From Candidatus Thorarchaeota archaeon (GTDB taxonomy: Archaea; Asgardarchaeota; Thorarchaeia; Thorarchaeales; Thorarchaeaceae), in NCBI GenBank assembly GCA_016840385.1, contig JAEOSL010000019.1, forward strand, positions 1-38,445: a DNA stretch of 38,445 nucleotides, in the 5' to 3' direction. Under the pieces are notes generated by a model. The model was not told the origin of the DNA. It searched no databases and was given only the letters and a program-made list of their open reading frames with translations. Positions 11,696-36,410 of this stretch are shown piece after piece. Position numbers and translations under genes: made by a program. Position 1 is the first letter of the stretch; every line of letters starts with the position of its first letter.

Positions 11696-12391
11696 TCATT
11701 GTTCTAAGCGAGATGCACTGTCCCTGTTGTGCATCTCCATAATTTGCTGCTTCATCTCATCAGAGAATTCTACAACCAACTTTTCTTTCAAATCCTCGGT
11801 AAGTTCCTCGCCTGCGGCAAGCTTTTGTCCTGCAAGCTTTACGGCTTGAAGAAAGCCTGAGAGTTGTTTCTTTCCTTCTTCATAGAGCAATAATTGTGCA
11901 GCAGGAAGGAAAATTGGTAGTGCCGTGGGATAGAGGGCCCTCACAATATCGAAGTTACTCGAATCAGGGAATCCGCATGTGGCAGCTAAGACAATAAATG
12001 GAAACTTGCGTATTCTACCAGGATGTTGTGTTTCTCCCTCTTTACTCACCATTTCAGGAAGTGAGAACACAAAGGTTCTTTCAAGCAGTTTTTGTGTATA
12101 GTGGGTCACATTGCGACCGTAGATCGGTGTACCGAGAAGCATTACATCCGCTTCTGCAATAGCTGGGATTAGTTGGTCCATAACATCTCGTTGTATACAT
12201 TTGCCAGGTGTTACCCACCAACAGTTGAAGCAACCACGACATCCACCAATATTTAGGTCTACAATATGATGTTTCTCAACATCAGCCCCTGATGACCGTG
12301 CCCCCTCAATGAAGGTTTCTAAAAGCACATCTGTTGTACCATGGGATTTTCTAGGGCTCCCATTGAAAACTAGAATCTTCATGTTTCTCAC
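11696..12391 (-). CDS. NADPH-dependent FMN reductase-like / iron-sulfur flavoprotein-like protein
   Basis: Flavodoxin-fold protein of the multimeric flavoprotein family: residues 4-15 ILVFNGSPRKSH form the FMN phosphate loop, and LLGTPIYGRNVTHY is the second flavin-binding loop. A cysteine cluster CRGCFNCWWVTPGKC near residues 49-63 resembles the cluster-binding region of archaeal iron-sulfur flavoproteins, but spacing differs, so an iron-sulfur cluster is uncertain. 231 residues is within family range; the start is an ATG three codons before the loop. It is the last gene before the first tRNA-derived repeat and may lie outside the cassette array. Confidence 0.8.
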   Translation of the reverse strand: MRNMKILVFNGSPRKSHGTTDVLLETFIEGARSSGADVEKHHIVDLNIGGCRGCFNCWWVTPGKCIQRDVMDQLIPAIAEADVMLLGTPIYGRNVTHYTQKLLERTFVFSLPEMVSKEGETQHPGRIRKFPFIVLAATCGFPDSSNFDIVRALYPTALPIFLPAAQLLLYEEGKKQLSGFLQAVKLAGQKLAAGEELTEDLKEKLVVEFSDEMKQQIMEMHNRDSASRLEQ

Positions 12392-12460
12392 ATTCTCTCA
12401 TCTGCCTTATAGGATTGAGGTCTCAGTAATTACCACATATTGATATCTCTGTGAAAAAAA

Positions 12461-12500
12461 GGTGGACCGAGCGAGATTCGAACTCGTGGTTTCCTCCATG
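12461..12500 (-). repeat. tRNA 3'-end repeat 1 (left boundary of array)
   Basis: On the plus strand it reads ggtggaccgagcgagattcg followed by aactcg, then a diverged stretch ending cctccat that still matches the anticodon-stem side of repeats 8 and 9. Read on the minus strand it is the variable region, T-arm and acceptor 3' strand of a tRNA. T-stem strands are ACGAG and CTCGC, with one mismatch. It sits 16 bases beyond the stop of the beta-propeller gene. Confidence 0.85.
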
Positions 12501-12515
12501 AAGTATTCGAAAAAA

Positions 12516-13547
12516 TCAACTTTGAGTCACTTGAAGAATCTGTAGACCCTCAGATCCACAGAGATAGATATAGTCTTCATCCAAGACTACGTCCCAAGGT
12601 CGACCTCCATCTGAAAACCTTTCAACCTCGATAGGTGACGAGGAATTGGTTACATCGAGAAGATACAACCCGCTTTCAAAGTCAACAGCATAGAGTAGTG
12701 AATCCTGCACATAGAAAGATTGGAACGTACCTTCTGAATCAAATTCACATAATTTCTCAATATTAGTTGGGTTTGTCGCATCAAATATTTGAAGTTCACC
12801 AACTCCACCATCATGATTCCCTACATAGATTATCCCATTTGAAACGGATGGATCCCAAAAACCACTGCCATCTGAAAATTGACCGATGTATGTTGGATTG
12901 GTTGGGTCGCTGATGTCAACTAGTGTTAGTCCTCCTTGACCTGTGATATACGCTATGTCGCCTTCTATGTCCAAATGAATACAGCGAGAACCATAACTTG
13001 AAACAAAGACTGGTTCACTCGGAGTACTGATGTTCAGAATGACCATTCCATTATCATCGTCACCAAGATAAAGCAGGTCATCCACGACTTCTAGGTCATA
13101 TGCGGTTTCGATATCAGCGTACCCCTCAATTGCGGTAGGTAGAGATGGGTTTGTTATATTGATTATTCGAAGTCCTACAACCTGGTCGGCTATGTAAACA
13201 ATATCACCTACAGATTCTATTGCGAAGGGTAACCCTCCATCATGAAATGTTCCCAGAATCTCGGGTTGAGAGGGATTACTGATATTGACAATAATCAATC
13301 CATACGAGGTCTGGTCTCCATAATCAATCACGAAAGCAAGATTGTCTTCTACGTGCACTCTCAAAGCTCCGCCCCCGGTATCAATCGATCCAATCAGATT
13401 TAGTTCTACATTCATTGAGGGTGGTATCGGTGGTATTGAAAAGTACGCAAACGACAGCGTAACACCTACCGTAAGAGCGGCTATTAGAAGTCCAATCGAT
13501 GCTAGGTTTTTCCGTGATTGATTCATGGTGTCACAAAGTGTACTCAC
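12516..13547 (-). CDS. LVIVD-repeat beta-propeller, membrane-anchored (cassette 1)
   Basis: 343-residue protein with an N-terminal membrane segment (residues 16-36, IGLLIAALTVGVTLSFAYF), then a chain of about seven LVIVD-type repeats such as SYGLIIVNISNPSQPEILGT, YIADQVVGLRIINITNPSLP and GLTLVDISDPTNPTYIGQF. This predicts an extracellular beta-propeller, likely a binding or adhesion surface; no catalytic residues stand out. The ATG is at 13547 (ATG 13526 is alternative, just before the hydrophobic segment). It is the only gene between repeats 1 and 2, and shares orientation with the repeats. Confidence 0.82.
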   Translation of the reverse strand: MSTLCDTMNQSRKNLASIGLLIAALTVGVTLSFAYFSIPPIPPSMNVELNLIGSIDTGGGALRVHVEDNLAFVIDYGDQTSYGLIIVNISNPSQPEILGTFHDGGLPFAIESVGDIVYIADQVVGLRIINITNPSLPTAIEGYADIETAYDLEVVDDLLYLGDDDNGMVILNISTPSEPVFVSSYGSRCIHLDIEGDIAYITGQGGLTLVDISDPTNPTYIGQFSDGSGFWDPSVSNGIIYVGNHDGGVGELQIFDATNPTNIEKLCEFDSEGTFQSFYVQDSLLYAVDFESGLYLLDVTNSSSPIEVERFSDGGRPWDVVLDEDYIYLCGSEGLQILQVTQS

Positions 13548-13591
13548 TTAAGGCATAATAAAAGGAGAGGCGTTCACGCAAGCAATTTCTG

Positions 13592-13613
13592 TTGTGGACC
13601 GAGTGAGATTCGA
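13592..13613 (-). repeat. tRNA 3'-end repeat 2 (short)
   Basis: Plus-strand tgtggaccgagtgagattcga, about 21 bases, covering the acceptor 3' strand, one T-stem strand (CTCAC in the tRNA sense) and most of the T-loop. It ends abruptly in ttta. It lies between two divergent genes, 45 bases before the left one's start and 38 before the right one's. Confidence 0.8.
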
Positions 13614-13650
13614 TTTATTTAAGTTCTATCAGTGAATTCACTGAGGAGAT

Positions 13651-14328
13651 GTGCCGAAAATGAAGACATACATCAATCTACCATTTGTGAAACGACGTCT
13701 GATTCCTGAAGAGTTTCAAGATGATGATAATAGGTATCCAGAATCACTTGTAGAGTTCTTCATTCATCAATTCACACTACCAGGTGACACCATCTTCGAC
13801 CCTTTTGCAGGTTTAGGAACAACACTCCTTGTTGCTGAGGATATGGGTCGAACTCCGTACGGTATTGAAGCAGATGAACGACTGCATGAATACATCCGCT
13901 CCCAACTAGTCATGAAAGACAATATTATCCTCGGAGATTCTCGGAACCTTGACAAGTTTCATCTACCCAGCTTTGATTTGGTTATCACATCACCAATCTT
14001 CATGAGAAGCGATGAAACAATGAACCCACTTTCAGGGTACAAAGAAAAGGGCACATATCAGAAGTATCTTGATGAGCTTCAAGATATATTTCGAAAGGTA
14101 CGGGAGTTCCTAAAACCTAAAGCCAAGGTGATCGTTGAAGTCTTTAATTTGAGAGCTACAGAAACTCGACCATTGACGTTCTTGGCTTGGGACATGGCTC
14201 GTGCAATATCTAGCGTTCTTAGGTTTGATAAAGAGATCATTGCATGTTGGCAAGGTGAAGTCAGTGGGGATAATCCATTTGGACAAGGGTATGATCACAG
14301 CTACTGTCTAGTGTTTGATCCAGAATGA
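13651..14328 (+). CDS. DNA methyltransferase-like protein with altered motif IV (cassette 2)
   Basis: Resembles the beta-class N4-cytosine/N6-adenine DNA methyltransferases. SAM motif I DPFAGLGTT begins at residue 50, preceded by PESLVEFFIHQFTLPGDTIF and followed by GIEADERLHEYI, as in site-specific methylases. The catalytic motif IV, normally TSPPY or DPPY, reads TSPIF at 113-117, so the second proline and the aromatic are changed to Ile-Phe. Activity on DNA is therefore uncertain; it could be a variant methylase or have another substrate. No restriction partner is adjacent. 225 residues; starts at ATG 13660 or GTG 13651. Only gene between repeats 2 and 3. Confidence 0.7.
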   Translation: MPKMKTYINLPFVKRRLIPEEFQDDDNRYPESLVEFFIHQFTLPGDTIFDPFAGLGTTLLVAEDMGRTPYGIEADERLHEYIRSQLVMKDNIILGDSRNLDKFHLPSFDLVITSPIFMRSDETMNPLSGYKEKGTYQKYLDELQDIFRKVREFLKPKAKVIVEVFNLRATETRPLTFLAWDMARAISSVLRFDKEIIACWQGEVSGDNPFGQGYDHSYCLVFDPE

Positions 14329-14330
14329 AA

Positions 14331-14358
14331 TGGTGGATCGAGTGAGATTCGAACTCAC
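14331..14358 (-). repeat. tRNA 3'-end repeat 3 with fully paired T-arm
   Basis: Plus-strand tggtggatcgagtgagattc then gaactcac. In the tRNA sense the T-stem strands are GTGAG and CTCAC, fully complementary although both differ from the resident tRNA (GGGAG and CTCCC). The acceptor strand has one change (ggatcga). It fills the gap between two converging genes: 2 bases after the left stop and 2 bases before the right one. Confidence 0.85.
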
Positions 14359-14360
14359 AA

Positions 14361-14822
14361 TCAATAGTCATCTGATCTGTTGATGTTTTCCTGAAGATTC
14401 GGTAAGAATATCCAAATAAGCCAGAAACCAATAAGAGACAATGCTAAGCCCAGCGGAATAGCAATACCTCGTAGATTTGAGCCAATGAATCCAATTACGA
14501 AAGCATAGATTGATGGGATAACAGCAAACATGTACATGAGCATAGCTGGACCCATAATGTTAGGCAGCTCAGGCTTCTTCCTGAAGTGACGGTAGGAAAT
14601 ATAGAGGAGCAGAAGCTCGATGGGCATCAGAAATAACATTAGCCATGAAAAGGCTTCAATTGGACCAGTGCTAACTGGCAATTCATCTTCTGGTATTAGG
14701 AGAACAATAAAGGGCAGTACTATTGTATAAATTAGGAATATAATTCCAAGAAGTCTAGCTTTTCTGAGTGATGGCTTGCTATCTGGTTCCATGAAATCCA
14801 CCTCTACCGCTTTGGCAATCAT
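14361..14822 (-). CDS. Small membrane protein with four transmembrane helices (cassette 3)
   Basis: 153 residues with four hydrophobic segments: LLGIIFLIYTIVLPFIVLLI (about 24-43), AFSWLMLFLMPIELLLLYIS (58-77), IMGPAMLMYMFAVIPSIYAF (90-109) and an IPLGLALSLIGFWLIWIFL segment (122-140). The N-terminus is acidic and the loops are short. No family recognised. The start is ATG 14822; ATG 14792 is also possible. It is the only gene between repeats 3 and 4, and its stop lies two bases from the T-arm of repeat 3. Confidence 0.7.
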   Translation of the reverse strand: MIAKAVEVDFMEPDSKPSLRKARLLGIIFLIYTIVLPFIVLLIPEDELPVSTGPIEAFSWLMLFLMPIELLLLYISYRHFRKKPELPNIMGPAMLMYMFAVIPSIYAFVIGFIGSNLRGIAIPLGLALSLIGFWLIWIFLPNLQENINRSDDY

Positions 14823-14890
14823 GCTTTTAGCTTTAATACTTAGTCCCTGATGAGGATACGTATCTAAGAAGTTGAACGTAGAAGAAGGAG

Positions 14891-14909
14891 TGGTGGACCG
14901 AGCGAGATT
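14891..14909 (-). repeat. tRNA 3'-end repeat 4 (shortest)
   Basis: Plus-strand tggtggaccgagcgagatt, 19 bases, then sequence unrelated to the tRNA. It keeps the CCA complement, acceptor strand and one T-stem strand but has lost the T-loop. It sits between divergent small membrane-protein genes; the right gene's candidate TTG start is only 7 bases away. Confidence 0.8.
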
Positions 14910-14915
14910 TGTGAG

Positions 14916-15455
14916 TTGGACTGGAATTTAGCAAACCCTTTTCTTCTTTGGACTAGATACTTAATTGTAATTATAGTAATATGTCTACGGAGAGTTACTC
15001 CAACGGATAAGTATAGTCTACTTGGCAGGGGAATAGCATTCATCGGGGTGGTAATATTCCTTTTTCCCATAGCAGTCATAACCTATTGGATTGGAGGGAA
15101 TCCTGAGGGATATATTCTCCAACCATTTGACATACCTATACTTGCGGTATTCGGAATCCTTGGACTCATTTTGGCTTACAGTGGAGCGATTATTCATAGA
15201 AGGTTCGCTGTGATAGGACCGTTTCTCACCAAAGATGGTGAACTCATCCACTCAGGCAAAGCTTGGACGAAAGGAACTGAGTCCGGGTTGTTCCTCACCT
15301 CATGCGGACGCGTGGTATCGATAAATCAAACTTCAAGAGAAACCGCGCATATAGGATATAGAGTTGTTACCGCAAGTTACGTAACATGTAATGACTGCAA
15401 TCTAAAAGAAGGAGGGGCAATAATGGATACAGTCAGACACGGCCGGATATGGTAA
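14916..15455 (+). CDS. Small membrane protein with cysteine-bearing C-terminal domain (cassette 4)
   Basis: Up to 179 residues with two clear membrane segments (LGRGIAFIGVVIFLFPIAVI, then DIPILAVFGILGLILAYSGA), followed by a 75-residue tail containing SCGRV and CNDCNLKEGG. No family recognised. The start is unsure: TTG 14916 is the longest choice and adds another hydrophobic stretch, no ATG exists near the head, and a later GTG would remove that stretch. It is the only gene between repeats 4 and 5. The nearness of the repeat to its start suggests the cassette carries little or no promoter of its own on this side. Confidence 0.55.
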   Translation: MDWNLANPFLLWTRYLIVIIVICLRRVTPTDKYSLLGRGIAFIGVVIFLFPIAVITYWIGGNPEGYILQPFDIPILAVFGILGLILAYSGAIIHRRFAVIGPFLTKDGELIHSGKAWTKGTESGLFLTSCGRVVSINQTSRETAHIGYRVVTASYVTCNDCNLKEGGAIMDTVRHGRIW

Positions 15456-15534
15456 AGACATGATTCCTCATATAGGCTCAACAATGAGATCCTTGACCTC
15501 CCTATCTTGTTCTGAAATAATTTAATACTAATAA

Positions 15535-15558
15535 TGGTGGACCGAGCGAGATTCGAAC
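15535..15558 (-). repeat. tRNA 3'-end repeat 5
   Basis: Plus-strand tggtggaccgagcgagattc then gaac, breaking into ggttcgatatc, so the second T-stem strand is lost. It is followed by about 140 bases without a gene before the caspase-like gene; that stretch is AT-rich and holds a TATA-like aatattaatata near 15648-15660. Confidence 0.85.
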
Positions 15559-15734
15559 GGTTCGATATCAAGGACTGATTCCAAATCATTCAGTACTATC
15601 AAGAGCGGCAATTATCTCAAACAATTCTTTATTTAGCTAATGAATAGAAATATTAATATAGGAATACAGATTACTGTTACGTAATATCTATTACATTCGT
15701 TATGAATGATAAAGATTGGTTAGGAGATTCTAAT

Positions 15735-16925
15735 ATGAGCGATAAACGTGAAAATATCAAAATCAAAATTTTTGCATCTCCCAGGGCATTTAGGAAACAT
15801 GACACGAAAGATGAGGAACGGATAGCTGACATCGTCCGTAAGGAGATCCTTACTCGCGAAAAGGCTAAACATCATAGTGTCAAGGTGAAGGTCAAGCGTA
15901 GGAAAGATGGATCACCCAAATACTTGGTCGTCTACATGCTAAGGAAGGATACGTATACTGCCGATATTGTGAGGGTCGATGTCGATGAGAATTATGCGAT
16001 TCAAGCATTCGTAGATGACTACGCTGACACCGAGGATGACGAAGAGGAGAGTGAAGCAGAAGAAGTGTACGAGTCGGTCGACTTTGTTGTCGGCACACCC
16101 GTACCGGAAATCCCGACTGCCAACGCGGCTGTCGAAGAGATACGCCAGATGGTAGTCGATGCTGGTTTTACATGTAAGGTTCTACTTGGCGAGGATGCCT
16201 CAGTAGCTAATTACAAGAACTATTTGAAGTCTGGTCTACGGGGCTTTGTTAACATAGGTCACGGGAGTACAGATCTTATTGTTCTCGATGATGGCGCGCT
16301 GTACGCCAGTTGGTTCCAAGATCTGCCTGGTAAACAACTCGCTCCCGCCGTTGTGTACTTCAACTCGTGCAGGGTATTCAACAATCCGCTTCAACCTGCA
16401 GTCATGAGGGCTGGGGCTCGGACCTACATTGGCGGTATTGTCAATCTGTTAATTGGACCTTCCGAGGAGGTCTGTAAGTGCTTCTGGAACAAGGTGCTAA
16501 CACAACGCGCTGCCATGGGTCAGAGCCTAGAAAATTGCGAAACAGACAACTATCCAATGCAGGGTGCACACGGTATATCTGGCGATCTGGGTACTTTCAA
16601 CTTTATCACGTCAGTAATTGACAAATACAAGGTCGTACTTTACGGAGAGGATGCAACAGTTGGAAATCTAACAGCATTCATCCATTGCTACTATGAGGGT
16701 ACGAATGTGATGAGTTGCGAATTCTACAAAGAAGGTGCCGCTCTAACTCAAAATCGGTATGCGGGCGGTAGAGTTGGATTGGTCTATCCATGGTCACGGT
16801 TCAGCTCAATCCTGGATGTTCTCAGAAACGAGAAACCAGTCTACTTTGGCTTCATCATGTCCACGAAAGTAGGATATGTTGCTACGCACCGAGAACCTGT
16901 AGGCGAAGGATCTGATCAGTCGTAA
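15735..16925 (+). CDS. Caspase/CHAT-like cysteine peptidase domain protein (cassette 5)
   Basis: About 396 residues. The first 115 are charged and basic, then acidic (DDYADTEDDEEESEAEEVYE), without a recognised fold. The core (about 125-270) looks like a caspase/gingipain/CHAT fold: GFVNIGHGS supplies a His at 176 and VVYFNSCRVF a Cys at 212, each after a hydrophobic strand, as in the His-Cys dyad of clan CD peptidases; the next strand RAGARTYIGGIVNL also matches that fold. No signal peptide is seen, so it is probably cytoplasmic. I chose ATG 15735, preceded by ggag at proper distance; ATG 15702 adds 11 residues. It is the only gene between repeats 5 and 6. Target unknown. Confidence 0.7.
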   Translation: MSDKRENIKIKIFASPRAFRKHDTKDEERIADIVRKEILTREKAKHHSVKVKVKRRKDGSPKYLVVYMLRKDTYTADIVRVDVDENYAIQAFVDDYADTEDDEEESEAEEVYESVDFVVGTPVPEIPTANAAVEEIRQMVVDAGFTCKVLLGEDASVANYKNYLKSGLRGFVNIGHGSTDLIVLDDGALYASWFQDLPGKQLAPAVVYFNSCRVFNNPLQPAVMRAGARTYIGGIVNLLIGPSEEVCKCFWNKVLTQRAAMGQSLENCETDNYPMQGAHGISGDLGTFNFITSVIDKYKVVLYGEDATVGNLTAFIHCYYEGTNVMSCEFYKEGAALTQNRYAGGRVGLVYPWSRFSSILDVLRNEKPVYFGFIMSTKVGYVATHREPVGEGSDQS

Positions 16926-16979
16926 TCTCTTCAAAACTGTGCATTTGATGTCCCAACTTAGACAAAGCAAAGGCTAACT

Positions 16980-17020
16980 ATCACTATCATCTTCGGTAAT
17001 CTTAGGATGATAGTGATTTT
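16980..17020 (+). terminator. 12-bp perfect hairpin followed by T run
   Basis: The arms atcactatcatc (16980-16991) and gatgatagtgat (17006-17017) are perfectly complementary, with a 14-base loop and then tttt. It lies 55 bases after the caspase-like gene and before repeat 6, so it probably marks the 3' end of that gene's mRNA. A hairpin this strong is unusual in archaea, where U-tracts usually suffice. Confidence 0.55.
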
Positions 17021-17065
17021 CATAGCTCATCCTGATGTAGTTATTAAATTTCATTCAGGAATGAG

Positions 17066-17092
17066 TGGTGGACCGAGCGAGATTCGAACTCA
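17066..17092 (-). repeat. tRNA 3'-end repeat 6
   Basis: Plus-strand tggtggaccgagcgagattc then gaactca. T-stem strands in the tRNA sense are ATGAG and CTCGC (one mismatch, one wobble). The stop codon of the minus-strand gene to its right directly abuts it, so the repeat would form the 3' untranslated end of that mRNA. Confidence 0.88.
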
Positions 17093-17788
17093 TTAGAAAT
17101 CTTCATCGACTAGTGTTCTACCAGAACCATTTGATTTGATTTCTCGTGCGAAACTATCAATAATTTTATTCAGTTGCTCAGTTGTGTATTTTTTTTGAAG
17201 GGTGACAAAAACTGAGTAGACAATCCCTTTTCCTGTGTAGAAAGTATTTTGGTCCACTGGAATTGTGAATTCACCCTCCTTTCTTGCTACCTTGATTTCT
17301 CCAATCTGATGAGAGTAATCCCATTTCCAGATAACTTTTGGAATCTTCACTTTTGTATCGAATGATCTCTCAGATTGGAAAAAGGCTAGAAAGAACAGAG
17401 TATTTGACCACCACTGAACAATTGCGTATACAGGGTCTTTGTTGAGAATCGCAAATTTTCCCTCTATGAACATCTCAGGTGGTGTGATTTGTCGAAGAAT
17501 ATCCATACCACGAAAGAACATGGAACTTCCCTTAGCATAGTATACTAATCCAAGCATTCCAAGCACAAAGGTAATAGGAAAAATAACAATCACTATCGCA
17601 AATCCTACTACTTCTGGTGTTGACTCTGGCAGGAAAAATAACACAACAAGTAGAAGAATGGATATCAAGCATAATACTCCACTCCATACCACCTTCCGCT
17701 TAACTGATTTTCGGAACACTTGTTCAGAATCTGATTGCGTATTGTTTTGAAACTCTTTCAAAATGATTCCCAACCAACAAGTAGACAT
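17093..17788 (-). CDS. Uncharacterised membrane protein, two helices plus soluble domain (cassette 6)
   Basis: 231 residues. Two membrane segments (about 36-54, SGVLCLISILLLVVLFFL, and 62-85, GFAIVIVIFPITFVLGMLGL) separate a short charged N-terminus from a 145-residue soluble C-terminal domain. That domain includes FIEGKFAILNKDPVYAIVQW and GKGIVYSVFVTLQKKYT, predicted alpha/beta. No family recognised. ATG 17788 is the first start. It is the only gene between repeats 6 and 7 and is read in the same direction as the repeats. Confidence 0.68.
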   Translation of the reverse strand: MSTCWLGIILKEFQNNTQSDSEQVFRKSVKRKVVWSGVLCLISILLLVVLFFLPESTPEVVGFAIVIVIFPITFVLGMLGLVYYAKGSSMFFRGMDILRQITPPEMFIEGKFAILNKDPVYAIVQWWSNTLFFLAFFQSERSFDTKVKIPKVIWKWDYSHQIGEIKVARKEGEFTIPVDQNTFYTGKGIVYSVFVTLQKKYTTEQLNKIIDSFAREIKSNGSGRTLVDEDF

Positions 17789-17858
17789 TGTTTTGGAGTA
17801 AAATAAGCTTGGTGGATTTTGAAGAAATCAATTAGTCGATTGGCGTGTAGTATAGAAA

Positions 17859-17886
17859 TGGTGGACCGAGTGAGATTCGAATCTCA
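17859..17886 (-). repeat. tRNA 3'-end repeat 7, palindromic T-arm
   Basis: Plus-strand tggtggaccgagtgagattc then gaatctca. An extra base makes tgagattcgaatctca a perfect 16-base palindrome. The stop codon of the beta-helix gene follows immediately at 17887-17889. Confidence 0.88.
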
Positions 17887-18903
17887 TTAAGAAATCTCAC
17901 TTGACTTAGAGCGTAGAAGCTGCCAGATCAACAATATCACAATCCCGCCTACGAAAGAAATCAATACTGCAATCTGTAAATGATTAAAGCCCGAGGATTG
18001 TGGTTGGTCATCTACTGTGTTTGGGTACTGGTCGACTGAATTAGAAGGACCATCTATGGCATAGGAACCAGACCCTGAGTAATCACTCCACCAGTTGCCT
18101 TCTTCTGTTTCGGTATCATACCATGTGTTATTATCACCCTCATCAAATCCCTGACTTGTCAATTCGCCCCTAGGTTCTCCATCAATCCTGTATGTATCAT
18201 CTCTTCCATTATTTACAAATTGATTGTGATGAGCCACGTTGTAGTTTGAAGTTCCTACAAATGCTAATCCATGTTGCGTGTTGTTAGTAACTATGTTGCC
18301 AATGATAGTGTTGAAATGTGAGTATCTAATGTTGATTCCTTGGTAGCTGTTGTCAGAAATATTGTTGTATGCAATGTAACATCTACCAGCTTCATTGAGA
18401 TGAATCCCTTGAGCTAGGTTGGAACATCTATTACCAACGACTGTAGCGTTTTGGGTTCCCCAAACAACAATACCCGCACCGTCATCAGAATTTGATATAC
18501 AAGTGTTATTCTCAATTCTTACTCTCCCTGCTGCAGTTTGCAGAATCTCTATGCAAGCCCAGTCAGTTTCGAGATAGCAATCTCTAATTATGAAATACGC
18601 CGATGTGTAGGACACTGATATTGAGCTATTTTGAGTTCCAGTTGCAATAATATGCAATCTTTCAATCACATAGGGATCTTCTTGAGATCCAGTGCCATTG
18701 GTGGTGATCTGTTCGAACTCTTGATTTGAATTGATTTCAATCGGAATATGTTCGATGAAGTAGCTCGTATTAAGTTCAGAAAGGTTTCTTGAGATCGTTG
18801 ATATGTCGCCTAAGTTTGGCTCGTAACTGTTCAAGGAAAACTGAGAAATCGCTGAGCAGATTAAGATCATAATTAGAAGATTTATAGCTCTTCTCTGATG
18901 CAT
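17887..18903 (-). CDS. NosD-like right-handed beta-helix surface protein (cassette 7)
   Basis: 338-residue secreted protein. Residues 5-23 form a signal peptide (INLLIMILICSAISQFSLN). Residues 60-80 have the typical entry sequence GTGSQEDPYVIERLHI. Then come parallel beta-helix (CASH/NosD) rungs such as RIENNTCISNSDDGAGIVVW, NATVVGNRCSNLAQGIHLNE and NTIIGNIVTNNTQHGLAFVG. The end has the WYDTETEEGNWWSDY motif common to archaeal members and a C-terminal anchor IAVLISFVGGIVILLIWQLL. Such proteins usually bind carbohydrate or sit in the cell envelope; no catalytic site is visible. It is the only gene between repeats 7 and 8. Confidence 0.85.
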   Translation of the reverse strand: MHQRRAINLLIMILICSAISQFSLNSYEPNLGDISTISRNLSELNTSYFIEHIPIEINSNQEFEQITTNGTGSQEDPYVIERLHIIATGTQNSSISVSYTSAYFIIRDCYLETDWACIEILQTAAGRVRIENNTCISNSDDGAGIVVWGTQNATVVGNRCSNLAQGIHLNEAGRCYIAYNNISDNSYQGINIRYSHFNTIIGNIVTNNTQHGLAFVGTSNYNVAHHNQFVNNGRDDTYRIDGEPRGELTSQGFDEGDNNTWYDTETEEGNWWSDYSGSGSYAIDGPSNSVDQYPNTVDDQPQSSGFNHLQIAVLISFVGGIVILLIWQLLRSKSSEIS

Positions 18904-18996
18904 TCTTCATCAACCAAAGAAAAATCAAAGGTTTCTAGAATATTAGGTGCTCGTTCAACGCAATAACTTCTCTTCTCGTGAATAAAGAAATGAAAA

Positions 18997-19036
18997 TGGT
19001 GGACCGAGTGAGATTCGAACTCGCGACCTCCTCCAT
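18997..19036 (-). repeat. tRNA 3'-end repeat 8 (long)
   Basis: Plus-strand tggtggaccgagtgagattc then gaactcgcgacctcctccat, about 40 bases. It matches the resident tRNA through T-arm, variable loop and the 3' anticodon-stem strand. T-stem strands GCGAG and CTCAC have one mismatch. It lies between divergent genes, 94 bases before one start and about 67 before the other. Confidence 0.9.
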
Positions 19037-19102
19037 ATGTTGTTTCTAAGTACACAAGCTGATTAATGTTGAAGGGATGTGAACTGAATATGAGGAGGAA
19101 AA

Positions 19103-20053
19103 ATGAGGAAACGATATGTAGCAATTGTTCTTGCAATCATTCTTCTTATACCTAGTACACCTCATGAAATTTCAGCAAACCCAATTACAATGTCATCAGC
19201 GATCTCGGGAGGTTTTTTGTGTTTCTCCTCAAATATAAGTATGCCAAAAGCCAGTGTCAACATCACTCTAACATGTAGAGATGTTATCCCATCACATGCA
19301 TACTGGTCAACATTCTTCTACGAAATGGATATGCAATCCTCATTCGTGGTTTATTGTGAAGATGATCAGAATACAACTATAGCTTTTGCATATCCAGCGA
19401 GCTGGGGGGAATATTACTACCCAGTAACCTATGATGAGTTAGAATTTGAAGTATTCGTCAATGATACTGAGGTTCCAACACAAATTGCGATACTGGATCA
19501 TACAAGTTTAGATTGGTCCCTATGGTCTTTAATTGAGCAAGATTATTGGTCTAATTGGGGTTTTCTGTTTGAACAGCAGTTTGTTTTGTTCAATGTGACA
19601 CTCTATGCAGATGAAGAGGTCACAATGAAGGTAAACACCAATGCCATCATGAGTTCGGATAAGGATGTATTCGATTTTGATTATTGCGTAGGGACAGCTA
19701 GAGCATGGAGAGGTGAAACTCTGGAAGAAGTACGAATTCGATTGACGAATACAACACAATACATAGAAGATTCATTTCAACCCAATGGATCGCTGACCAT
19801 TATTGAAGAGGATGACAGTACAACAGGAATCTGGAATCTCAATTTTACTTCCTTTGAAGAAAATACAGTAGGAGTATCAATCAGACAAAATGAATATCCT
19901 ATGATGACTGTTTCCACAACTACTACTACTACTACAAACCAAACCCAAGTAACAGATGACCTACCTACTTTGATGCATACTATGTTTCTATTTGCTGGAG
20001 CAGGTGTTGTAGCTATTCTTACCATAGTGATAATTTGCAAGAAGAAAGTGTGA
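19103..20053 (+). CDS. Secreted, C-terminally anchored surface protein with Thr stalk (cassette 8)
   Basis: 316 residues. Residues 1-25 are a signal peptide (MRKRYVAIVLAIILLIPS). The extracellular part (about 27-270) is beta-rich and acidic, with many Asn-X-Ser/Thr sites and no recognised family. A threonine-rich stalk (STTTTTTTNQTQ) near residue 275 precedes a C-terminal membrane helix (FLFAGAGVVAILTIVIICKK), the classic layout of archaeal cell-surface proteins. ATG 19103 has ggaggaaaa just before it. It is the only gene between repeats 8 and 9. Confidence 0.75.
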   Translation: MRKRYVAIVLAIILLIPSTPHEISANPITMSSAISGGFLCFSSNISMPKASVNITLTCRDVIPSHAYWSTFFYEMDMQSSFVVYCEDDQNTTIAFAYPASWGEYYYPVTYDELEFEVFVNDTEVPTQIAILDHTSLDWSLWSLIEQDYWSNWGFLFEQQFVLFNVTLYADEEVTMKVNTNAIMSSDKDVFDFDYCVGTARAWRGETLEEVRIRLTNTTQYIEDSFQPNGSLTIIEEDDSTTGIWNLNFTSFEENTVGVSIRQNEYPMMTVSTTTTTTTNQTQVTDDLPTLMHTMFLFAGAGVVAILTIVIICKKKV

Positions 20054-20075
20054 AAGAGTCAACAATTTTTAAAAG

Positions 20076-20138
20076 TGGTGGACCGAGCGAGATTCGAACT
20101 CGCGACCTCTTCCATTTTGGAAGCATGTGAAGTGCGTT
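20076..20138 (-). repeat. tRNA 3'-end repeat 9 (longest, includes intron-like part)
   Basis: Plus-strand tggtggaccgagcgagattc, then gaactcgcgacctcttcca, then tttgga and a stretch (gtgaagtgcgtt) resembling the intron of the resident tRNA (gcgaaatgcgtc). In the tRNA sense it is part of the anticodon-loop intron plus the whole 3' exon. T-stem strands GCGAG and CTCGC pair fully. It therefore keeps the most tRNA sequence of all copies and is nearest to the intact tRNA. Confidence 0.9.
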
Positions 20139-20220
20139 ACTAGCTTCAATCTACGGATTGATGTATTCTTGAATGATACAAGTGAACAATTAGTAAAATG
20201 CACTTGGAGATTCAAGGGTG

Positions 20221-23200
20221 TTATACACTAAGATTGCGTAAAAAAATCGATATCCTATCCATAATAAATTCAGAGGGATTGCCTCCTTCGGATTTCATCT
20301 GAAGCATTTGAATTAGATCCGATTTAGACAACAAAAGTACTAGTTTTTCCTCTTCTTTCCATAGCTTTGCTCTACGAGCAATGGCTGCGTCTTCTGCAGG
20401 GACATGGCTACATAGTATTCCAAAAGCTCGTTTTGCCTGTCGGAAAAGATAGTTCCCAATCTGTGCAACATCACCGGGTTCAGGCGAATAAGAGGAATTC
20501 TTGAATTCTACTAACAAGAACATAGTAGCGAAATCATGACGGATTTGGTCCCAAATTACATTACCAGATGAAGCCAGTCTGTAGATAGCATCCCTTCGCT
20601 CTCTTTTATCTTCAGTATATGATTGCACCACTGGTGGTACTATTAAATGCGGGCTAAATAGAAGACTCAAAATTTCAATTCCTACGTCCTCAAAGGCCCT
20701 CCAATCTTCCAAACCACTCCTCAAAGATGATAATCTATTTATCAATTGATTAGCAAGTTCTACCAGGTTTGCATGAAGTGTTTCTTCTACTCTTACGGCT
20801 AAGTTAGGACCTCGTATATGAGATACCATCAGCTTCCAAGAAATATCAAAAAAGTCTGAAAGAACATCCTTCAAACCAAGACCTAGAAATGCAAAGAAAG
20901 TGCGATAATCTGTGTCAGAAGTTGTTTCGATAAACCGCAAATCATCCAGTGGAAGCAAATTCCCTGTCAATGAATTTCTAAGATCTTCGCAGATTCTTTT
21001 ATCAATTTCAACAAGATTTTGATTAGTTTTGATATCTGGATTGAAAGAGATAGAAACCAGTATCTTGTCATTCTTCTTTTCATAAGATATGCCTTCACTG
21101 GCAAGAGTTGGATAGCCTCGGTTCATATCTTGGAGAAGTAGAACAGCATCCCAAATTAGATTCCTTAGCTTATCTGCACTATACCCTTTGTCTATATGTT
21201 CGTATTGACTGCGAGAGATTGCGTGAAGAAGATTTGAAACATCCTCTCCTTTTCGATTTTGCATCACTATCGAAAACATATTGAGCCAACTCTCATTTGA
21301 AATTGCATCACCTTCGCCGGAAATAATAGATGAGATATCTTTCAATCCAAAACGTTTGAACTCATTGAATCCTCTAACTTGTTCACCAACTGGGAGATTT
21401 TCGGTGATTTTAGTCCTTATCTCTCTTGGAATATGATCAAGTCTATCCTCCAAGTTCCCGTAGCACAAAGTGAAGTAATTGTAGAGATGTTTAGAAAGTT
21501 GTACTTTCAAAATCTTGTTTAGTGCTTTAGCAGACTTGGAAAATCGTCCTTCTATCCAGTATGAATAGATATTACGAAGCCTTTGGGATTCTGTTTTTGT
21601 TAAATCAAGTGACACTATTGGGAATATTGCAGATTGATGTATTTGTTTTACAATAAATGAAAGAATGACAGCAAACGTTTGTCGATACATATTGATTACT
21701 GGCCAAATTTGTTTCTCACTTAGTTCTGTATTGTTTACAAGTTTGATGAATTGTTGAGTCTCTGATGGGAAGTACCAATATCGTGCCCATTGTGCAATTG
21801 GGTCTAATACGAGTTCGATGGGATCTACATGAGTAAAGTAGGTCCTACTAAGATTTTCCAAATTTGTAGTACATAAACCAACTAATTCATCAACTGAAAA
21901 CTCAGACCTAAATGCTCTTTGCTCTCTTGCGATTTTTAGATGAAGCTCTTTAATAATTTCCATTTGGTGTTTCAGTTCTTTGTTCTGATGTGTGTCGATT
22001 ATCTCATCTATTAGATCGATTTCTTCATCAGCTGTCGCTCTTCTCCTTGTTGCAAGACCGTAAACAGGAATCAAGTAACTCTCGAGTGATACCTGATATA
22101 TCCTGATTATCTCCTTATTACGTTTTAAAATCTCAGGACAAATAACCCAGCTAAATCCTCCGTCCTTTTTCTTCCTTTTCATTATCAATTGAGCTTTCTT
22201 GAGTTGTTGATAGTGGTAATGATATTCCTTCAATAGCGGGTCAATATCCTCTATGCTACCTCTAAGAAATACATGAATTAGTTGCTCAAGTGCAGCTTTG
22301 CGGTTCAGTTTTGCTGTAACATTTCCAAACAAGATTTTTAATTTCTTCTTAAGCCTGGAATCCCCTTCCAGTATTGCTTGAATATTTTGAAGGGTATCAT
22401 ATTGAAAAGTAACAGGATCGGAAGTCAATATATCGAATTCTCCTTCCCTGAATTTTTCCCTTACACGGTGTATGAAACTTCTATATGTCAAGGGAACACC
22501 ATTGTTCAAAAGAAAACTGTATTCCTGTTCAATAAATTCTCGTTTAACTTCACGATTTACTTCTGGATTTGGCCAAAATGGTTTTAATCTGATATTTAGC
22601 ATCTTATACGCGTCTTCAACTGAAATGTCACGTATAATTTCCCGGTTTGGAAAAGATCCTGAGAATTTAGGTTCTTTTGATACAATGGATTGCCATTCAA
22701 GTGCCCCGGCAACATAGAAGGATATTCGAAGACTACCGACTGCTCTATTGAGTCTAGCTGTAAATATTTGCAAATAACTCAAGAAGTCTAAAGATGTATG
22801 TGTGTATGTGGTATTCTTATGAAGATCATCAATGAATATCACAAGACCTAATGGAGACTTACTATTACAATAAACATTTAATATTGAGCGAATTTCGTCG
22901 TCTATATTGGTAGAGCTCGGAATTTCGTCAACAACATCAAGTTGTTGAAATAGTAATTCCCGAAGCTCTCTACAAAGTTCATGTTTGAATCGTTTCATAA
23001 CGGAATCAATTTTCTCTTGCGTGAATATCTGCAAATAAATAGCAGGTATATCAACAGACCAGAATTGCTTAATTAGAAATTCAAAAAGAGTGGTTTTTCC
23101 AGACCCGAACTCGCCAAAGAATATTGTGTTCTTCAATATCTCTTCAGGTACTTCATCAATTACCGTTTGATACCTATTAAAAATATCAGTTTTATGAAGG

Positions 23201-23916
23201 ACAGTTTCATGGAACTCTGCTGGAATTTGACTCAACCCTTCCAAGGTCGGAAAAGGATCACTAATCATATGAAGTTGCTTCCACCAAGGTTCATAATGAT
23301 CATATTCACTGTCATTTTCAACAGATACTGTTGGTTCTTTTATATCACTAATATCCAAAATTGAGGGGAGAGAATTATACTCAGTCTGTTTTTCTTCAAT
23401 CATTTCAAGAAAATCAGCCTCTTTTGATTGTTTCAGGTCTTCAAATTGTATCATTGCCTCTTCTTTTGCCTTTCTTAGAGCCCAATCATGTAACCTAGCT
23501 TTCGTTTCCAGTTGACTCATATCAGAAAGATCAATCGAGGGGGTTTCCGCAATCTTAAGATTAAGTTCTTGCCTTGGAGGTTCTTGATTTTTGATATAAG
23601 TTCTAAAATAAGGAAGGGACAGGATTGATTCTAACTGATTTTGGGTAGTTATTTTTCCTATTTTTATCATATGAGAAATTGCAGTTGAAGCAATTACTAG
23701 GTTAGAAACCATTTTGTGGCCAGATTTTTTGTGTTTTTCAAGGAAGTAGTTCTGTTTCCTCTTTTTGTATTCATCTTTTGGAAATTCCTCCAAGAGCATT
23801 ATACTCAAATCTTGTTTTATGAAGCCCAAAATTAATTCTTTTTTATCCAATACGATAGTCCCCGTGAAATCGCAGTCGCTGCTCTGTGTCCTACTGCAGA
23901 TTTGCAAGACATTCAT
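20221..23916 (-). CDS. Large P-loop ATPase with C-terminal PD-(D/E)XK nuclease-like domain (cassette 9)
   Basis: 1231 residues. The N-terminal 230 have charged helices. An AAA/STAND-type ATPase follows: Walker A GEFGSGKT at 268-275, Walker B LVIFIDDL with Asp363-Asp364, then a sensor-like region. Residues 500-1050 are helical with no family I can name. The C-terminus looks like a restriction-type nuclease: ERRDAIYRL supplies Asp1109 and LVEFKN supplies Glu1137-Lys1139, the D...ExK pattern. ATPase plus nuclease in one large protein is common among anti-phage systems, so defence is my inference. It lies between repeat 9 and the tRNA, and a small open frame ends one base before its ATG. Confidence 0.72.
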   Translation of the reverse strand: MNVLQICSRTQSSDCDFTGTIVLDKKELILGFIKQDLSIMLLEEFPKDEYKKRKQNYFLEKHKKSGHKMVSNLVIASTAISHMIKIGKITTQNQLESILSLPYFRTYIKNQEPPRQELNLKIAETPSIDLSDMSQLETKARLHDWALRKAKEEAMIQFEDLKQSKEADFLEMIEEKQTEYNSLPSILDISDIKEPTVSVENDSEYDHYEPWWKQLHMISDPFPTLEGLSQIPAEFHETVLHKTDIFNRYQTVIDEVPEEILKNTIFFGEFGSGKTTLFEFLIKQFWSVDIPAIYLQIFTQEKIDSVMKRFKHELCRELRELLFQQLDVVDEIPSSTNIDDEIRSILNVYCNSKSPLGLVIFIDDLHKNTTYTHTSLDFLSYLQIFTARLNRAVGSLRISFYVAGALEWQSIVSKEPKFSGSFPNREIIRDISVEDAYKMLNIRLKPFWPNPEVNREVKREFIEQEYSFLLNNGVPLTYRSFIHRVREKFREGEFDILTSDPVTFQYDTLQNIQAILEGDSRLKKKLKILFGNVTAKLNRKAALEQLIHVFLRGSIEDIDPLLKEYHYHYQQLKKAQLIMKRKKKDGGFSWVICPEILKRNKEIIRIYQVSLESYLIPVYGLATRRRATADEEIDLIDEIIDTHQNKELKHQMEIIKELHLKIAREQRAFRSEFSVDELVGLCTTNLENLSRTYFTHVDPIELVLDPIAQWARYWYFPSETQQFIKLVNNTELSEKQIWPVINMYRQTFAVILSFIVKQIHQSAIFPIVSLDLTKTESQRLRNIYSYWIEGRFSKSAKALNKILKVQLSKHLYNYFTLCYGNLEDRLDHIPREIRTKITENLPVGEQVRGFNEFKRFGLKDISSIISGEGDAISNESWLNMFSIVMQNRKGEDVSNLLHAISRSQYEHIDKGYSADKLRNLIWDAVLLLQDMNRGYPTLASEGISYEKKNDKILVSISFNPDIKTNQNLVEIDKRICEDLRNSLTGNLLPLDDLRFIETTSDTDYRTFFAFLGLGLKDVLSDFFDISWKLMVSHIRGPNLAVRVEETLHANLVELANQLINRLSSLRSGLEDWRAFEDVGIEILSLLFSPHLIVPPVVQSYTEDKRERRDAIYRLASSGNVIWDQIRHDFATMFLLVEFKNSSYSPEPGDVAQIGNYLFRQAKRAFGILCSHVPAEDAAIARRAKLWKEEEKLVLLLSKSDLIQMLQMKSEGGNPSEFIMDRISIFLRNLSV

Positions 23917-23917
23917 C

Positions 23918-24183
23918 CTAAATTAACTTTGTGAGCATTGCCTTGAATATAATTTTACACTTTGGAAATTCCAGTAAGGTCTTCACTATCACCGACTCAA
24001 TTTCATTTAAGGATGCAATAAGTTTGTCTTTCTGCATAATATGGTCGCTCCTCGGTTTTGTAATGATATGAATTTCACCAATTCCAATTGTATCTTGTCC
24101 CTCTAGGTTAAGATAAATGCATTCAATATAATTTTGGGTAATTTACATAATCTTCCTACATGCTCATTAATTTCACTTTCCAA
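23918..24183 (-). pseudogene. Possible small partner gene, frame-disrupted, upstream of the ATPase
   Basis: Two overlapping minus-strand frames look like one protein broken by a one-base shift. The first starts at TTG 24183 (ESEINEHVGRLCKLPKI) and stops at 24103-24105. The second is open from 24142 to TAG at 23918 (YIECIYLNLEGQDTIGIGEI, then HIITKPRSDHIM and a helical end). The switch would fall near the CCCAAAA run at about 24133-24139. The second frame ends one base before the ATPase ATG, which suggests coupled translation. It could be a true frameshift mutation, a sequencing error, a recoding site, or a gene with a non-standard start. Family unknown. Confidence 0.4.
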
Positions 24184-24207
24184 CTTTGTATAAAACGAAA
24201 AGAGAAG

Positions 24208-24343
24208 TGGTGGACCGAGGGAGATTCGAACTCCCGACCTCTTCCACTTTGGATAGACGCGAAATGCGTCAAAAGTGCCAAGGAAGCGATCTAATACCCT
24301 GCGACGTCATAATGAAGTCACAACCGGGCTGATCTATCGGCCC
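24208..24343 (-). tRNA. tRNA-Ala(GGC) with two putative introns, CCA encoded
   Basis: Minus-strand tRNA. The acceptor GGGCCGA pairs with TCGGTCC, including the G3-U70 pair that marks alanine tRNAs. The D-stem GATC/GATC, anticodon stem CTTCC/GGAAG, T-stem GGGAG/CTCCC and T-loop TTCGAAT are perfect. The anticodon loop reads TTGGCA plus T once 29 bases at 24247-24275 are removed, the canonical position after base 37; that intron has a GACGC/GCGTC hairpin. A second 29-base insert (about 24293-24321) splits the D-loop and has a TGTGAC/GTCGCA stem. Removing both leaves a normal 75-base tRNA plus CCA at 24208-24210. It anchors the cassette array. Confidence 0.85.
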
Positions 24344-24368
24344 ATGAGCACAATGTGTGCGATTCGCT

Positions 24369-25499
24369 ATGCCGAATGGAACGGTTAAAAGAATTGTGGA
24401 GTGTAGAGAGAGTATTCATCTAAACCGAAGGCAGAGAGATTTCACAGTGAAAGAAGAGAGCAAGAAGTCGAAGGCATTCAAGAAGTTCGAGGCATATTTC
24501 TTTGGAGATGACGACCTTTCTCTGCCAATGTCCCATGTTCTCGATATCTCGACCGTTTCAAAGTTGGAAGATGAAGAGAAGAAAACCTCAGAGAAGATGC
24601 TCATCGCTGCTTTGACCAAGAAATACGACCGAAGATGGATCTATGCTCTTGAAGAGCTGAAGACTGAGACCGCATACCAGTTTCTCTTTCATTGGTACAA
24701 TCGCGAAGAGGTTGAGTACACAAAGATTCGACTTGCCTATTCGCTTGTGAGGATAGACGGCAAGGCTCCAGTGTTAGAGTATGTCCAGGAAATCTTGAGT
24801 TCTAATGCAACTAAAGACTCGAAGATGAAAGCACTCAACTGTTTCTTCTGGATAAAGGAGGCTGGACTCGAAGATAAGGAAAAAGAGCAGTTGTTTCTCT
24901 CGATTCTCTTTAGTACCCTGATAGACAAGACCAAAGAAGTTCGCCTTTACGCATACGAGATTCTCACAGAATACTACAACACGAAGGATTTCACCCCCAT
25001 TGATGACGAAGTCTATAGTATCCTATCAAAGACATCTAAGGGAACAGAATATCAACGAGCGGCGCAGATGTTTGAGGATAGGCTGAGGTCTATGAAGGCA
25101 GTTCCAGCTAAGAGGAAAGTGATTGTGGACCATATCAAAAATCTCCCACACAATCCTCCTTCACTAGATGTGTCAAAGTGTAAGGTGTGTAGTACTATTC
25201 CCGATAATCTGACAGCAGATATTGCAGCTGGTGAGTCACTCGATACCCACAAGTCCAAACTAGAGAGAATGATCATCTTTGCGTACTATAGCAACTGCAT
25301 ATTGCGGTGTCCTGTTTGCGGTAGGCTGTATAGATACAAGTACGAGTATGAGTTTCTTGTCGGTATGTCCAGCGAAGAGGATGAATGGCTTTGGCGAACA
25401 GATACTGATGGAGCAGTAGAAATAGTAGATTCATTCCTGAAATACTACGACTTCAAACACATAGTCACCAGTGGAATCTTTTTGAAAATCACTTATTGA
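24369..25499 (+). CDS. HEAT-like helical protein with C-terminal CxxC pairs
   Basis: Roughly 375 residues, not a recognised family. The middle (about 90-250) is all helical with repeat-like pairs such as YAYEILTEYYNTKDFTPIDD and TKEVRLYAYEI, suggesting HEAT/ARM-type repeats. The C-terminal part has CKVCSTIPDNL and CPVCGRLYRYKYEYEF, likely one zinc site. The start is uncertain: GTG 24357, ATG 24369 or GTG 24447. The last is attractive because the first 30 residues look non-coding and a TATA-like ggttaaaa lies near 24384. The gene begins just beyond the 5' end of the tRNA on the opposite strand, so it flanks the array. Confidence 0.65.
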   Translation: MPNGTVKRIVECRESIHLNRRQRDFTVKEESKKSKAFKKFEAYFFGDDDLSLPMSHVLDISTVSKLEDEEKKTSEKMLIAALTKKYDRRWIYALEELKTETAYQFLFHWYNREEVEYTKIRLAYSLVRIDGKAPVLEYVQEILSSNATKDSKMKALNCFFWIKEAGLEDKEKEQLFLSILFSTLIDKTKEVRLYAYEILTEYYNTKDFTPIDDEVYSILSKTSKGTEYQRAAQMFEDRLRSMKAVPAKRKVIVDHIKNLPHNPPSLDVSKCKVCSTIPDNLTADIAAGESLDTHKSKLERMIIFAYYSNCILRCPVCGRLYRYKYEYEFLVGMSSEEDEWLWRTDTDGAVEIVDSFLKYYDFKHIVTSGIFLKITY

Positions 25500-25555
25500 T
25501 GGAACAGAGAAACTCTGTACGATACTGTGATTTGGTGATGGGATTCCATATCTCC

Positions 25556-27883: not shown

Positions 27884-27980
27884 CCTGACATAAAAATCAA
27901 ACTAATTTTTCTCATATAATCTTACTAATTTAATAGACCCTTTTGCATCTCAACAAGTCTATCTATCGCCATAGGTGAAT

Positions 27981-29411: not shown

Positions 29412-29427
29412 TCATTGGAATATAGAT

Positions 29428-29454
29428 GCTGGGGAGATGAATAGTCACCCCAGC
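29428..29454. terminator. Hairpin between convergent genes
   Basis: The arms gctgggg (29428-29434) and ccccagc (29448-29454) are perfectly complementary around a 13-base loop, in the 51-base gap between the transporter stop and the methyltransferase stop. It could serve both directions as an mRNA end. Confidence 0.4.
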
Positions 29455-29462
29455 CTCAATCT

Positions 29463-30629: not shown

Positions 30630-30652
30630 GGATTGAATCCTCCTGTAGGACA

Positions 30653-31822: not shown

Positions 31823-31827
31823 GGAAA

Positions 31828-32457: not shown

Positions 32458-32501
32458 CGTAAAGTATCTCCAATTTTCTTGACTCTGATTGTCAAATGCT
32501 A

Positions 32502-32522
32502 CCCTTTTATGTTACAAAAGGG
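32502..32522. promoter_or_regulatory. Inverted repeat at the corrinoid-operon promoter
   Basis: The half-sites ccctttt (32502-32508) and aaaaggg (32516-32522) form a perfect 7-base inverted repeat with a 7-base spacer, in the 138-base divergent gap. The left half overlaps a minus-strand TATA-like cataaaag about 50 bases before the corrinoid gene's ATG, as expected for a repressor operator. Confidence 0.5.
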
Positions 32523-32538
32523 GATAATATTCTTTTCA

Positions 32539-32556
32539 TTTTACCAAGTAGTAAAA
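32539..32556. promoter_or_regulatory. Second inverted repeat at the GH94-like gene promoter
   Basis: The half-sites ttttac (32539-32544) and gtaaaa (32551-32556), with a 6-base spacer, lie 40 bases before GTG 32596 and could cover that gene's TATA region. Its half-sites differ from those of the neighbouring repeat, so two different regulators are possible. Confidence 0.38.
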
Positions 32557-32595
32557 GATTAATGCCCCATTCAGATAATTCCGGACTTCGTAAAG

Positions 32596-36409: not shown

Positions 36410-36410
36410 T

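Follow-up and report, generated by a model that had tools for sequence, protein, structure and literature searches.

The stretch of DNA analysed here, the 38,445-nucleotide contig JAEOSL010000019.1 of a Candidatus Thorarchaeota archaeon (hereafter the window), carries between positions 12460 and 24343 a row of genes that are set between repeats of the 3' end of a tRNA and lead up to an intact tRNA-Ala(GGC). Plus-strand matches to the motif GTGGACCGAGCGAGATTCGA, with up to three mismatches, number ten in the window (starting at 12462, 13594, 14333, 14893, 15537, 17068, 17861, 18999, 20078 and 24210) and zero in each of 100 dinucleotide shuffles, on which ground a chance origin of the repeats was rejected. 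All ten sites lie in one orientation and correspond to nine remnants of the tRNA 3' end plus the tRNA itself, as a preliminary description of this DNA had claimed. The motif proposed there marks the same sites, while the repeat unit had to be corrected to the 22 bp of TGGTGGACCGRGNGAGATTYGA, which starts two bases ahead of it.

The tRNA gene (24208-24343, minus strand) forms the attI-like end of the array and is read with exons at 24343-24322, 24291-24275 and 24245-24208, the ends of the D-loop intron being uncertain. ARAGORN misses it in the unspliced window because of its two introns, in the D loop and at 37/38, as read here. Once both had been removed by script, the program returned a tRNA-Ala(ggc) of 77 bases, with a G3-U70 pair and an encoded CCA. 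Rfam, at the gathering threshold, gave no match in the window.

Counting from the distal end, and with all repeats on the plus strand, the first (12460-12481) is a longer remnant, extending from the 22-bp tRNA-Ala 3' end to the anticodon loop. Beyond it lies the gene for an LVIVD-repeat protein of 343 amino acids (aa; 12516-13547, minus strand), a relative of which is likewise single between repeats in another genome (L124, 1343-2501; loci and genomes of relatives are designated by L and G). The next six repeats consist of the 22-bp tRNA 3' end (13592-13613, 14331-14352, 14891-14912, 15535-15556, 17066-17087 and 17859-17880). They are followed, respectively, by the genes for an N6/N4 DNA methylase of 225 aa (13651-14328, plus strand), which forms a complete unit in L117 and L121 too and has one edge at a repeat in L094; a 153-aa protein without Pfam match (14361-14822, minus strand), single between repeats in seven further loci; a 179-aa protein, also without Pfam match (14916-15455, plus strand), with family members in L118 (two copies), L126 and L132; a 407-aa protein (15702-16925, plus strand) without Pfam or PDB sequence match, whose HG and NSC motifs recall what we take to be those of caspase-like peptidases; a 231-aa protein (17093-17788, minus strand) with a DUF3671 match under the Pfam cut-off and the same family in L116; and a NosD-like beta-helix protein of 338 aa (17887-18903, minus strand), whose family has members in L104 and L114 and, under looser linkage, in L098. 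The eighth repeat (18997-19018) is again longer, reaching the anticodon arm, and precedes the gene for a 316-aa protein without Pfam match (19103-20053, plus strand), with relatives in L119 and L124. The ninth (20076-20097) is the longest remnant, with 86% identity over 65 bp to the tRNA gene including its 37/38 intron, and is followed by the gene for a 1231-aa protein (20221-23916, minus strand) with a weak AAA_22 match, under the Pfam cut-off. Over the nine cassette genes, Pfam thus gives LVIVD, DNA methylase and NosD-like matches and, below the cut-off, DUF3671 and AAA_22, with four of the nine left without a match. A single gene had previously been counted in eight of the nine intervals; we find one main gene in all nine, one interval adding an overlapping open reading frame (ORF) of 84 aa (18882-19136).

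Arrays of the same kind in other Thorarchaeota

Copies of the motif occur in all ten genomes first searched and in 45 of the 47 genomes of the order, many of them being single tRNA genes. By defining a cluster as at least two copies with at most three mismatches, on the same strand and spaced by no more than 5 kb, and dropping one duplicate locus (L109), we obtained 35 clusters, with 134 repeats and 99 intervals, from 23 of the 47 genomes and the window. Loci were fetched where hits clustered, the hits of some genomes being left unfetched; the genomes are, judging by their titles, metagenome assemblies, and genes were called by simple ORF picking. Three to eleven copies are present in 22 of the clusters, and the median spacing between repeats is 983 bp. 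When genes of at least 80 aa are counted, 71 of the 99 intervals hold one, 3 none and 25 two or more, whereas random intervals of the same length in ten of these loci (array parts included) hold one gene in 45% of cases. The repeats also keep clear of genes, which overlap 22 of the 134, as compared with 85% of positions drawn at random from these loci. In an exact pattern scan of 227 genomes of the phylum, made with the Ala-type sequence only, 48 match, including 12 outside the order with one copy each. An exact-match scan of viral contigs returned the 22-mer in one contig, in a GC-rich stretch that contains numerous tRNA-like 3' ends and is unlike these arrays, and yielded no vector for them.

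The cassettes recur as units. In an all-against-all nucleotide comparison, 746 matches of at least 120 bp were examined; in 124 of them, one end or both ends fall on a repeat in each of the two genomes, and 16 pairwise matches, with 68-90% identity, extend in both partners from one repeat to another. The latter include the methylase unit of the window (in L117 and L121) and the 153-aa unit (in L116, L119 and L124). When the three copies of the methylase unit are aligned, homology extends from the left repeat into the right repeat and the sequence outside is unrelated. For six of the nine cassette genes of the window (1, 2, 3, 4, 6 and 7), relatives are single between repeats in other loci, mostly with different neighbours. 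The gene for the 153-aa protein, with 78 relatives found, of which the 11 that are organism-named all belong to Thorarchaeota, is single between repeats in eight loci, in which it is flanked on the left by seven different neighbours and, in one case, by the edge of the array. All 14 families with at least two single-gene copies keep the gene in a fixed orientation with respect to the repeat. The order of cassettes may also be changed, as in L133 and L135, whose distal flank is 92% identical and which carry two common cassettes (89% and 90% identical) in reversed order.

At the locus of the window, the left flank is conserved up to about 10.9 kb in several genomes and from 11.0 to 12.4 kb in G003 (83%) and partly in G002 (68%), and the right flank common to relatives resumes at 37.7 kb. 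Between these flanks, a single repeat without any cassette is present in G002 (L106), as against three repeats in G003 (L097) and nine remnants in the window; the lone repeat of G002 is overlapped by an ORF of 123 aa (16024-16395). Gain, loss and shuffling of single genes between repeats, which the preliminary description had proposed to look for in relatives, are borne out by the recurring units, by the swapped order in L133 and L135 and by these repeat counts. Outside the array, the gene for the transcription termination factor FttA (4633-6555) is 95% identical to Candidatus Thorarchaeota, which places the window in that group, and the gene adjoining the tRNA (24357-25499) has no confirmed relative in the genome contigs searched. 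The roughly 13 kb that lie 5' of the tRNA (24400-37600) find no match at the locus of G003, where only about 4 kb separate the tRNA from the common right flank, and form a further variable region adjoining the array. On the left side, the array is adjoined by an FMN reductase gene (11696-12391), whose family has members within intervals of L116 and L124. On that ground, this gene may represent one more cassette, with its outer repeat lost to decay, in which case the array would begin to the left of 12461.

A second tRNA is used in the same lineage. Arrays in G003, G035 and G005 (L199, L200, L202 and L203) are built on TGGTGCGGAGGGCGAGATTTGA, the 3' end of another tRNA, which from L203 we read by eye as tRNA-Leu with anticodon GAG; all three genomes carry tRNA-Ala arrays as well. 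L199 has six copies of TGGTGCGGAGGGCGAGATTTGA, with one gene in three of the five intervals, and the four copies of L203 have 0, 1, 2 and 2 mismatches with growing distance from the tRNA. One cassette family is found at both tRNA types: its member in L200 (5810-6226), which adjoins the outermost TGGTGCGGAGGGCGAGATTTGA copy found there, is 41-50% identical to those in L133 (9003), L135 (2813) and L137 (8636 and 9671). Paired copies of a third tRNA 3' end, Ser-like by eye, lie about 0.6 kb apart and in one orientation in L106 (6154 and 6751) and L116 (924 and 1486), the copy at L116 1486 resembling a whole tRNA.

These arrangements bear on the idea that the repeats are selected terminators, RNA-processing signals or debris of tRNA duplication, with no part in gene movement. 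In the sense of the tRNA, a pyrimidine-rich stretch follows the repeats, which often abut gene ends, and tandem near-intact tRNA-Ala copies are found in L118, in favour of this idea. Repeat orientation is, however, constant within an array, and yet the genes of the intervals face both ways (55 in the direction of the repeat and 79 opposite), a contrast on which terminators were rejected. Moreover, the edges of the methylase unit coincide with repeats, and arrays on another tRNA bear the end of that tRNA. We give this explanation hardly any credence.

The repeat unit and the tRNA end

The consensus over 133 repeats is TGGTGGACCGRGCGAGATTYGA, with about nine A/G-rich bases before it, and conservation drops past the T loop. 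The 22-bp unit covers the CCA end, the discriminator, the 3' acceptor strand, the 3' T-stem strand and the T loop; since the 22-mer doubled as the search motif, conservation inside it is partly selected, the flanks being free of that selection. Likeness to the tRNA reaches no more than four bases past the 22 in 57 of 108 remnants, as compared with 121 of 134 in the shuffled null, and 28 of the 108 run at least 13 bases past it, some to the anticodon loop or beyond. The minimal unit of 22 bp is clear, though some remnants are longer. In the 11 of 35 clusters where the 5' acceptor strand of the tRNA is readable, the remnants agree with it at position 7, A7 going with A in 12 of 12 cases and G7 with G in 24 of 25. 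The A and G hosts have cassette families in common, and kinship of the hosts may partly explain the agreement. In ten Ala arrays, mismatches to the consensus rise with distance from the tRNA (one-sided permutation p 0.023), a trend towards decay that is no more than suggestive.

An intact-looking tRNA stands as the end copy in 21 of the 35 clusters and is called in 5 of the 99 other copies, by a loose search for the 5' part of the tRNA. Two of these five non-end calls look like chance, one is a Ser-like tRNA of L116 and the tandem tRNA-Ala copies of L118 account for the other two. In the latter locus (2357-4076), three tRNA-Ala-like copies are spaced by 849 bp and a 159-aa gene is present in duplicate between them, a duplication that took whole or near-whole tRNA copies, beyond the 3' end alone.

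A polar array of short repeats headed by a leader-like intact tRNA would also suit a target-site duplication, in which a Cas1-type integrase (casposase) or a transposase makes staggered cuts of about 22 bp at the tRNA 3' end, in the manner of CRISPR adaptation. Casposons integrate at tRNA 3' ends. However, a 22-bp duplication does not explain the remnants that extend to the anticodon arm, and the flank common to the repeats is the A/G-rich stretch of about nine bases only, with no transposon-end-like sequence. In addition, enzyme searches, which covered 16 of the 23 array genomes, found Cas1 (PF01867) in none of the 16, as compared with 9 of 14 control genomes. We regard target-site duplication as very unlikely. 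The casposase, as a candidate enzyme, was rejected on the lack of Cas1 in the 16 array genomes.

Proposed mechanism and the search for a recombinase

We consider it highly probable that the row is an array of one-gene cassettes, each adjoining a copy of the last 22 bp of tRNA-Ala, and that cassettes have been added, lost and reordered via site-specific exchange within the 22 bp, probably by a recombinase acting in trans. In the proposed mechanism, a free cassette, circular or otherwise, that carries one repeat would recombine at the 3' end of the intact tRNA. The incoming copy would complete the tRNA and the former 3' end would stay as the next remnant, newer cassettes lying nearer the tRNA. 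The incoming copy would also have to pair with the 5' acceptor strand of the tRNA, so that only matching copies would survive, which may be the cause of the conservation of the repeat.

Several observations, concerning the arrays, the tRNA end, the site and the enzyme, weigh against such cassette exchange. As to the arrays, 13 of the 35 clusters have two copies and 28 of the 99 intervals contain no gene or several; the alignment of a family common to L100, L120 and L121 is less clean at the right edge; in L133 and L137 one conserved run spans two cassettes; and the detected intervals do not take in two of ten relatives of the 153-aa gene, those in L100 and L120. As to the tRNA end, the layout first described, with the intact tRNA at one end and remnants 3' of it, holds in the 21 clusters mentioned, by a test whose looseness must be counted here, and fails in others. 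The end tRNA is uncalled in 14 of the 35 clusters, several of which run into contig ends; no intact tRNA is called at the array end in L095 and L100, which are from chromosome-level assemblies; and in three relatives, G003 (L097), G002 (L106) and G031 (L122), the tRNA is inverted with respect to the remnants. As to the site, about half of the remnants exceed 22 bp, which leaves room for more than one crossover point; remnant and end copy differ at the position 7 base in L103, L115, L121, L133, L134 and L135, where the 5' strand is unread; and the trend of mismatches with distance is weak (p 0.12) when scored against the own tRNA 3' end of each array.

In the case of the tRNAs inverted in L097, L106 and L122, recombination between oppositely oriented copies could cause such a change. 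In G005 (L094), tRNA and array are inverted together, and inversions therefore also occur at the locus.

The enzyme provides the remaining points. Among the 16 genomes, the tyrosine recombinase family PF00589 gave 24 matches in nine, 23 of them on contigs that carry no such array and one, in G009, at a distance of about 657 kb from the array of that genome; in the other seven, the chromosome-level G008 included, no match was obtained even at an E value of 10. The G009 protein appears to lack what we take to be the first catalytic arginine. No PF00589 match lies beside an array in the 16 genomes, in searches run without a separate IntI model. In turn, the 20 longer regions around PF00589 matches contain one weak, chance-like match to the Ala repeat only (L182), and the shorter PF00589 and PF00239 loci contain none. 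The SSV-type integrase PF16795 was found in 0 of the 16 genomes, with a weak control (3 of 14 positive). Serine recombinases are present in 5 of the 16. One of them, of 200 aa (L103, 1061-1663), shares a contig with an array and is located 5' of the tRNA; it was not seen beside other arrays in a phmmer search with 29 ORFs chosen by position, some of them other than recombinase, and is likely to be a separate insertion element.

The cassette proteins themselves were scanned as 62 sequences, one per family, from 25 chosen loci and out of 134 interval genes, a set that leaves out 6 of 68 representatives, which are short, and intervals above 3 kb outside the window. PHROGs matched 22 families among the 62, most of them nameless and none named integrase, recombinase or transposase. 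Pfam gave mostly enzymes and membrane proteins among the 25 of 78 families listed, and PADLOC gave DNA methylases and candidate models among the 25 of 53 matches listed.

These results should be considered together with another explanation, namely that the array is an accretion of larger tRNA-targeted integrative elements, each with its own integrase, which decayed to one gene each with no cassette system being involved. Archaeal integrases favour tRNA 3' ends, which are thus common targets, according to the available text of PMC8371274; some intervals contain several genes; and 9 of the 16 array genomes have tyrosine recombinases elsewhere. Independent decay would, however, hardly yield the same single gene between repeats in eight loci with different neighbours, and it is at odds with the lack of named integrases, recombinases and transposases among the PHROGs families, largely nameless as they are, and with the seven genomes that have no PF00589 match. 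We hold accretion to be improbable. For cassette exchange at the tRNA, the simplest reading is a helper acting in trans, coming from a visiting element or belonging to an unrecognised family. In a broader proposal, about which we are rather more doubtful than convinced, the arrays may constitute a gene-capture platform of the Thorarchaeota, with an essential tRNA as the entry site and its displaced 3' ends as the cassette sites, operating in parallel on tRNA-Ala and tRNA-Leu and perhaps on tRNA-Ser; its recombinase would fall outside the tyrosine, serine and Cas1 families, and pairing within the tRNA would serve as proofreading of the site.

Comparison with known systems

The arrays described here bear on how Asgard archaea, relatives of eukaryotes, acquire and reshuffle genes, and provide a countable route, that of single genes swapped at tRNA ends throughout an order. 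They would set a second integron-like architecture, with its site taken from an essential tRNA gene, alongside bacterial integrons. They also raise the question of the responsible enzyme, and their simple sequence signature can be used to spot such arrays in other archaea.

The layout had at first been taken as undescribed, a claim that has to be narrowed, since cassettes with partial tRNA repeats are in print for bacteria, to the archaeal one-gene rows. The tRNA-associated additive flexible genomic islands of Candidatus Actinomarinales have partial tRNA repeats, small cassettes and transfer between genera, and the term integrase is absent from the main text of the report (PMC7771536). These islands are bacterial, and many-cassette rows of one gene each with repeat bounds, as well as their reordering, are not described in the available part of that text (PMC7771536). 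Similarly, the repeats of the additive island fGI-2 of Candidatus Methylopumilus are the last 20 bp of a tRNA (PMC10872708, as far as its text is available), but this island is bacterial and varies from 330 bp to 42 kb and from 1 to 63 genes, cassette reordering not being described in the same portion of text. Tycheposons, as presented in that article (via PMC10872708), are cargo-carrying elements at tRNA genes, like these arrays, but measure 4-200 kbp and are associated with a tyrosine recombinase. Aloposons of Heimdallarchaeum are likewise mobile elements of Asgard archaea that integrate at tRNA genes, but they are large and carry giant genes, and the term cassette is absent from the main text that describes them (PMC8813620). 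Archaeal integrons are gene cassette rows, enriched in Asgard archaea and mostly found as clusters that lack an integrase gene; IntI and attC serve them as enzyme and site, whereas the Thorarchaeota arrays use a tRNA 3' end, and neither tRNA nor Thorarch occurs in the main text of the report (PMC9668308). Searches of open-licence PubMed Central articles, with subscription papers outside their scope, gave no description of such arrays in Thorarchaeota. As far as that literature reaches, the novelty lies in archaeal rows of mostly one-gene cassettes at tRNA 3' ends, common to and reordered across an order, on more than one tRNA and without a recognised recombinase.

Neither the integrase that classical islands carry inside them nor the Cas1 of casposon- or CRISPR-like systems accompanies the arrays, the latter being missing from all 16 genomes searched. 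An IntI-type tyrosine recombinase beside attI, as in integrons, has no counterpart here, given that no PF00589 match adjoins the arrays of these genomes. Nor do the repeats have the folding inverted repeats of attC sites, a point on which no attC model was run: in the 57 of 108 remnants that end within four bases of the 22 bp the 5' T-stem strand is lost, and the T-arm hairpin is therefore gone. With integrons the arrays share, on the other hand, rows of cassettes made of one gene and one site of fixed orientation (71 of 99 intervals, 14 of 14 families, edges at the repeat), and the shuffling of cassettes between arrays with breakpoints at the sites. With tRNA-associated additive islands they share a set of variable genes that adjoins a tRNA and is delimited by direct repeats of a part of it. 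The array thus behaves like an integron, yet it belongs with the tRNA-associated additive islands.

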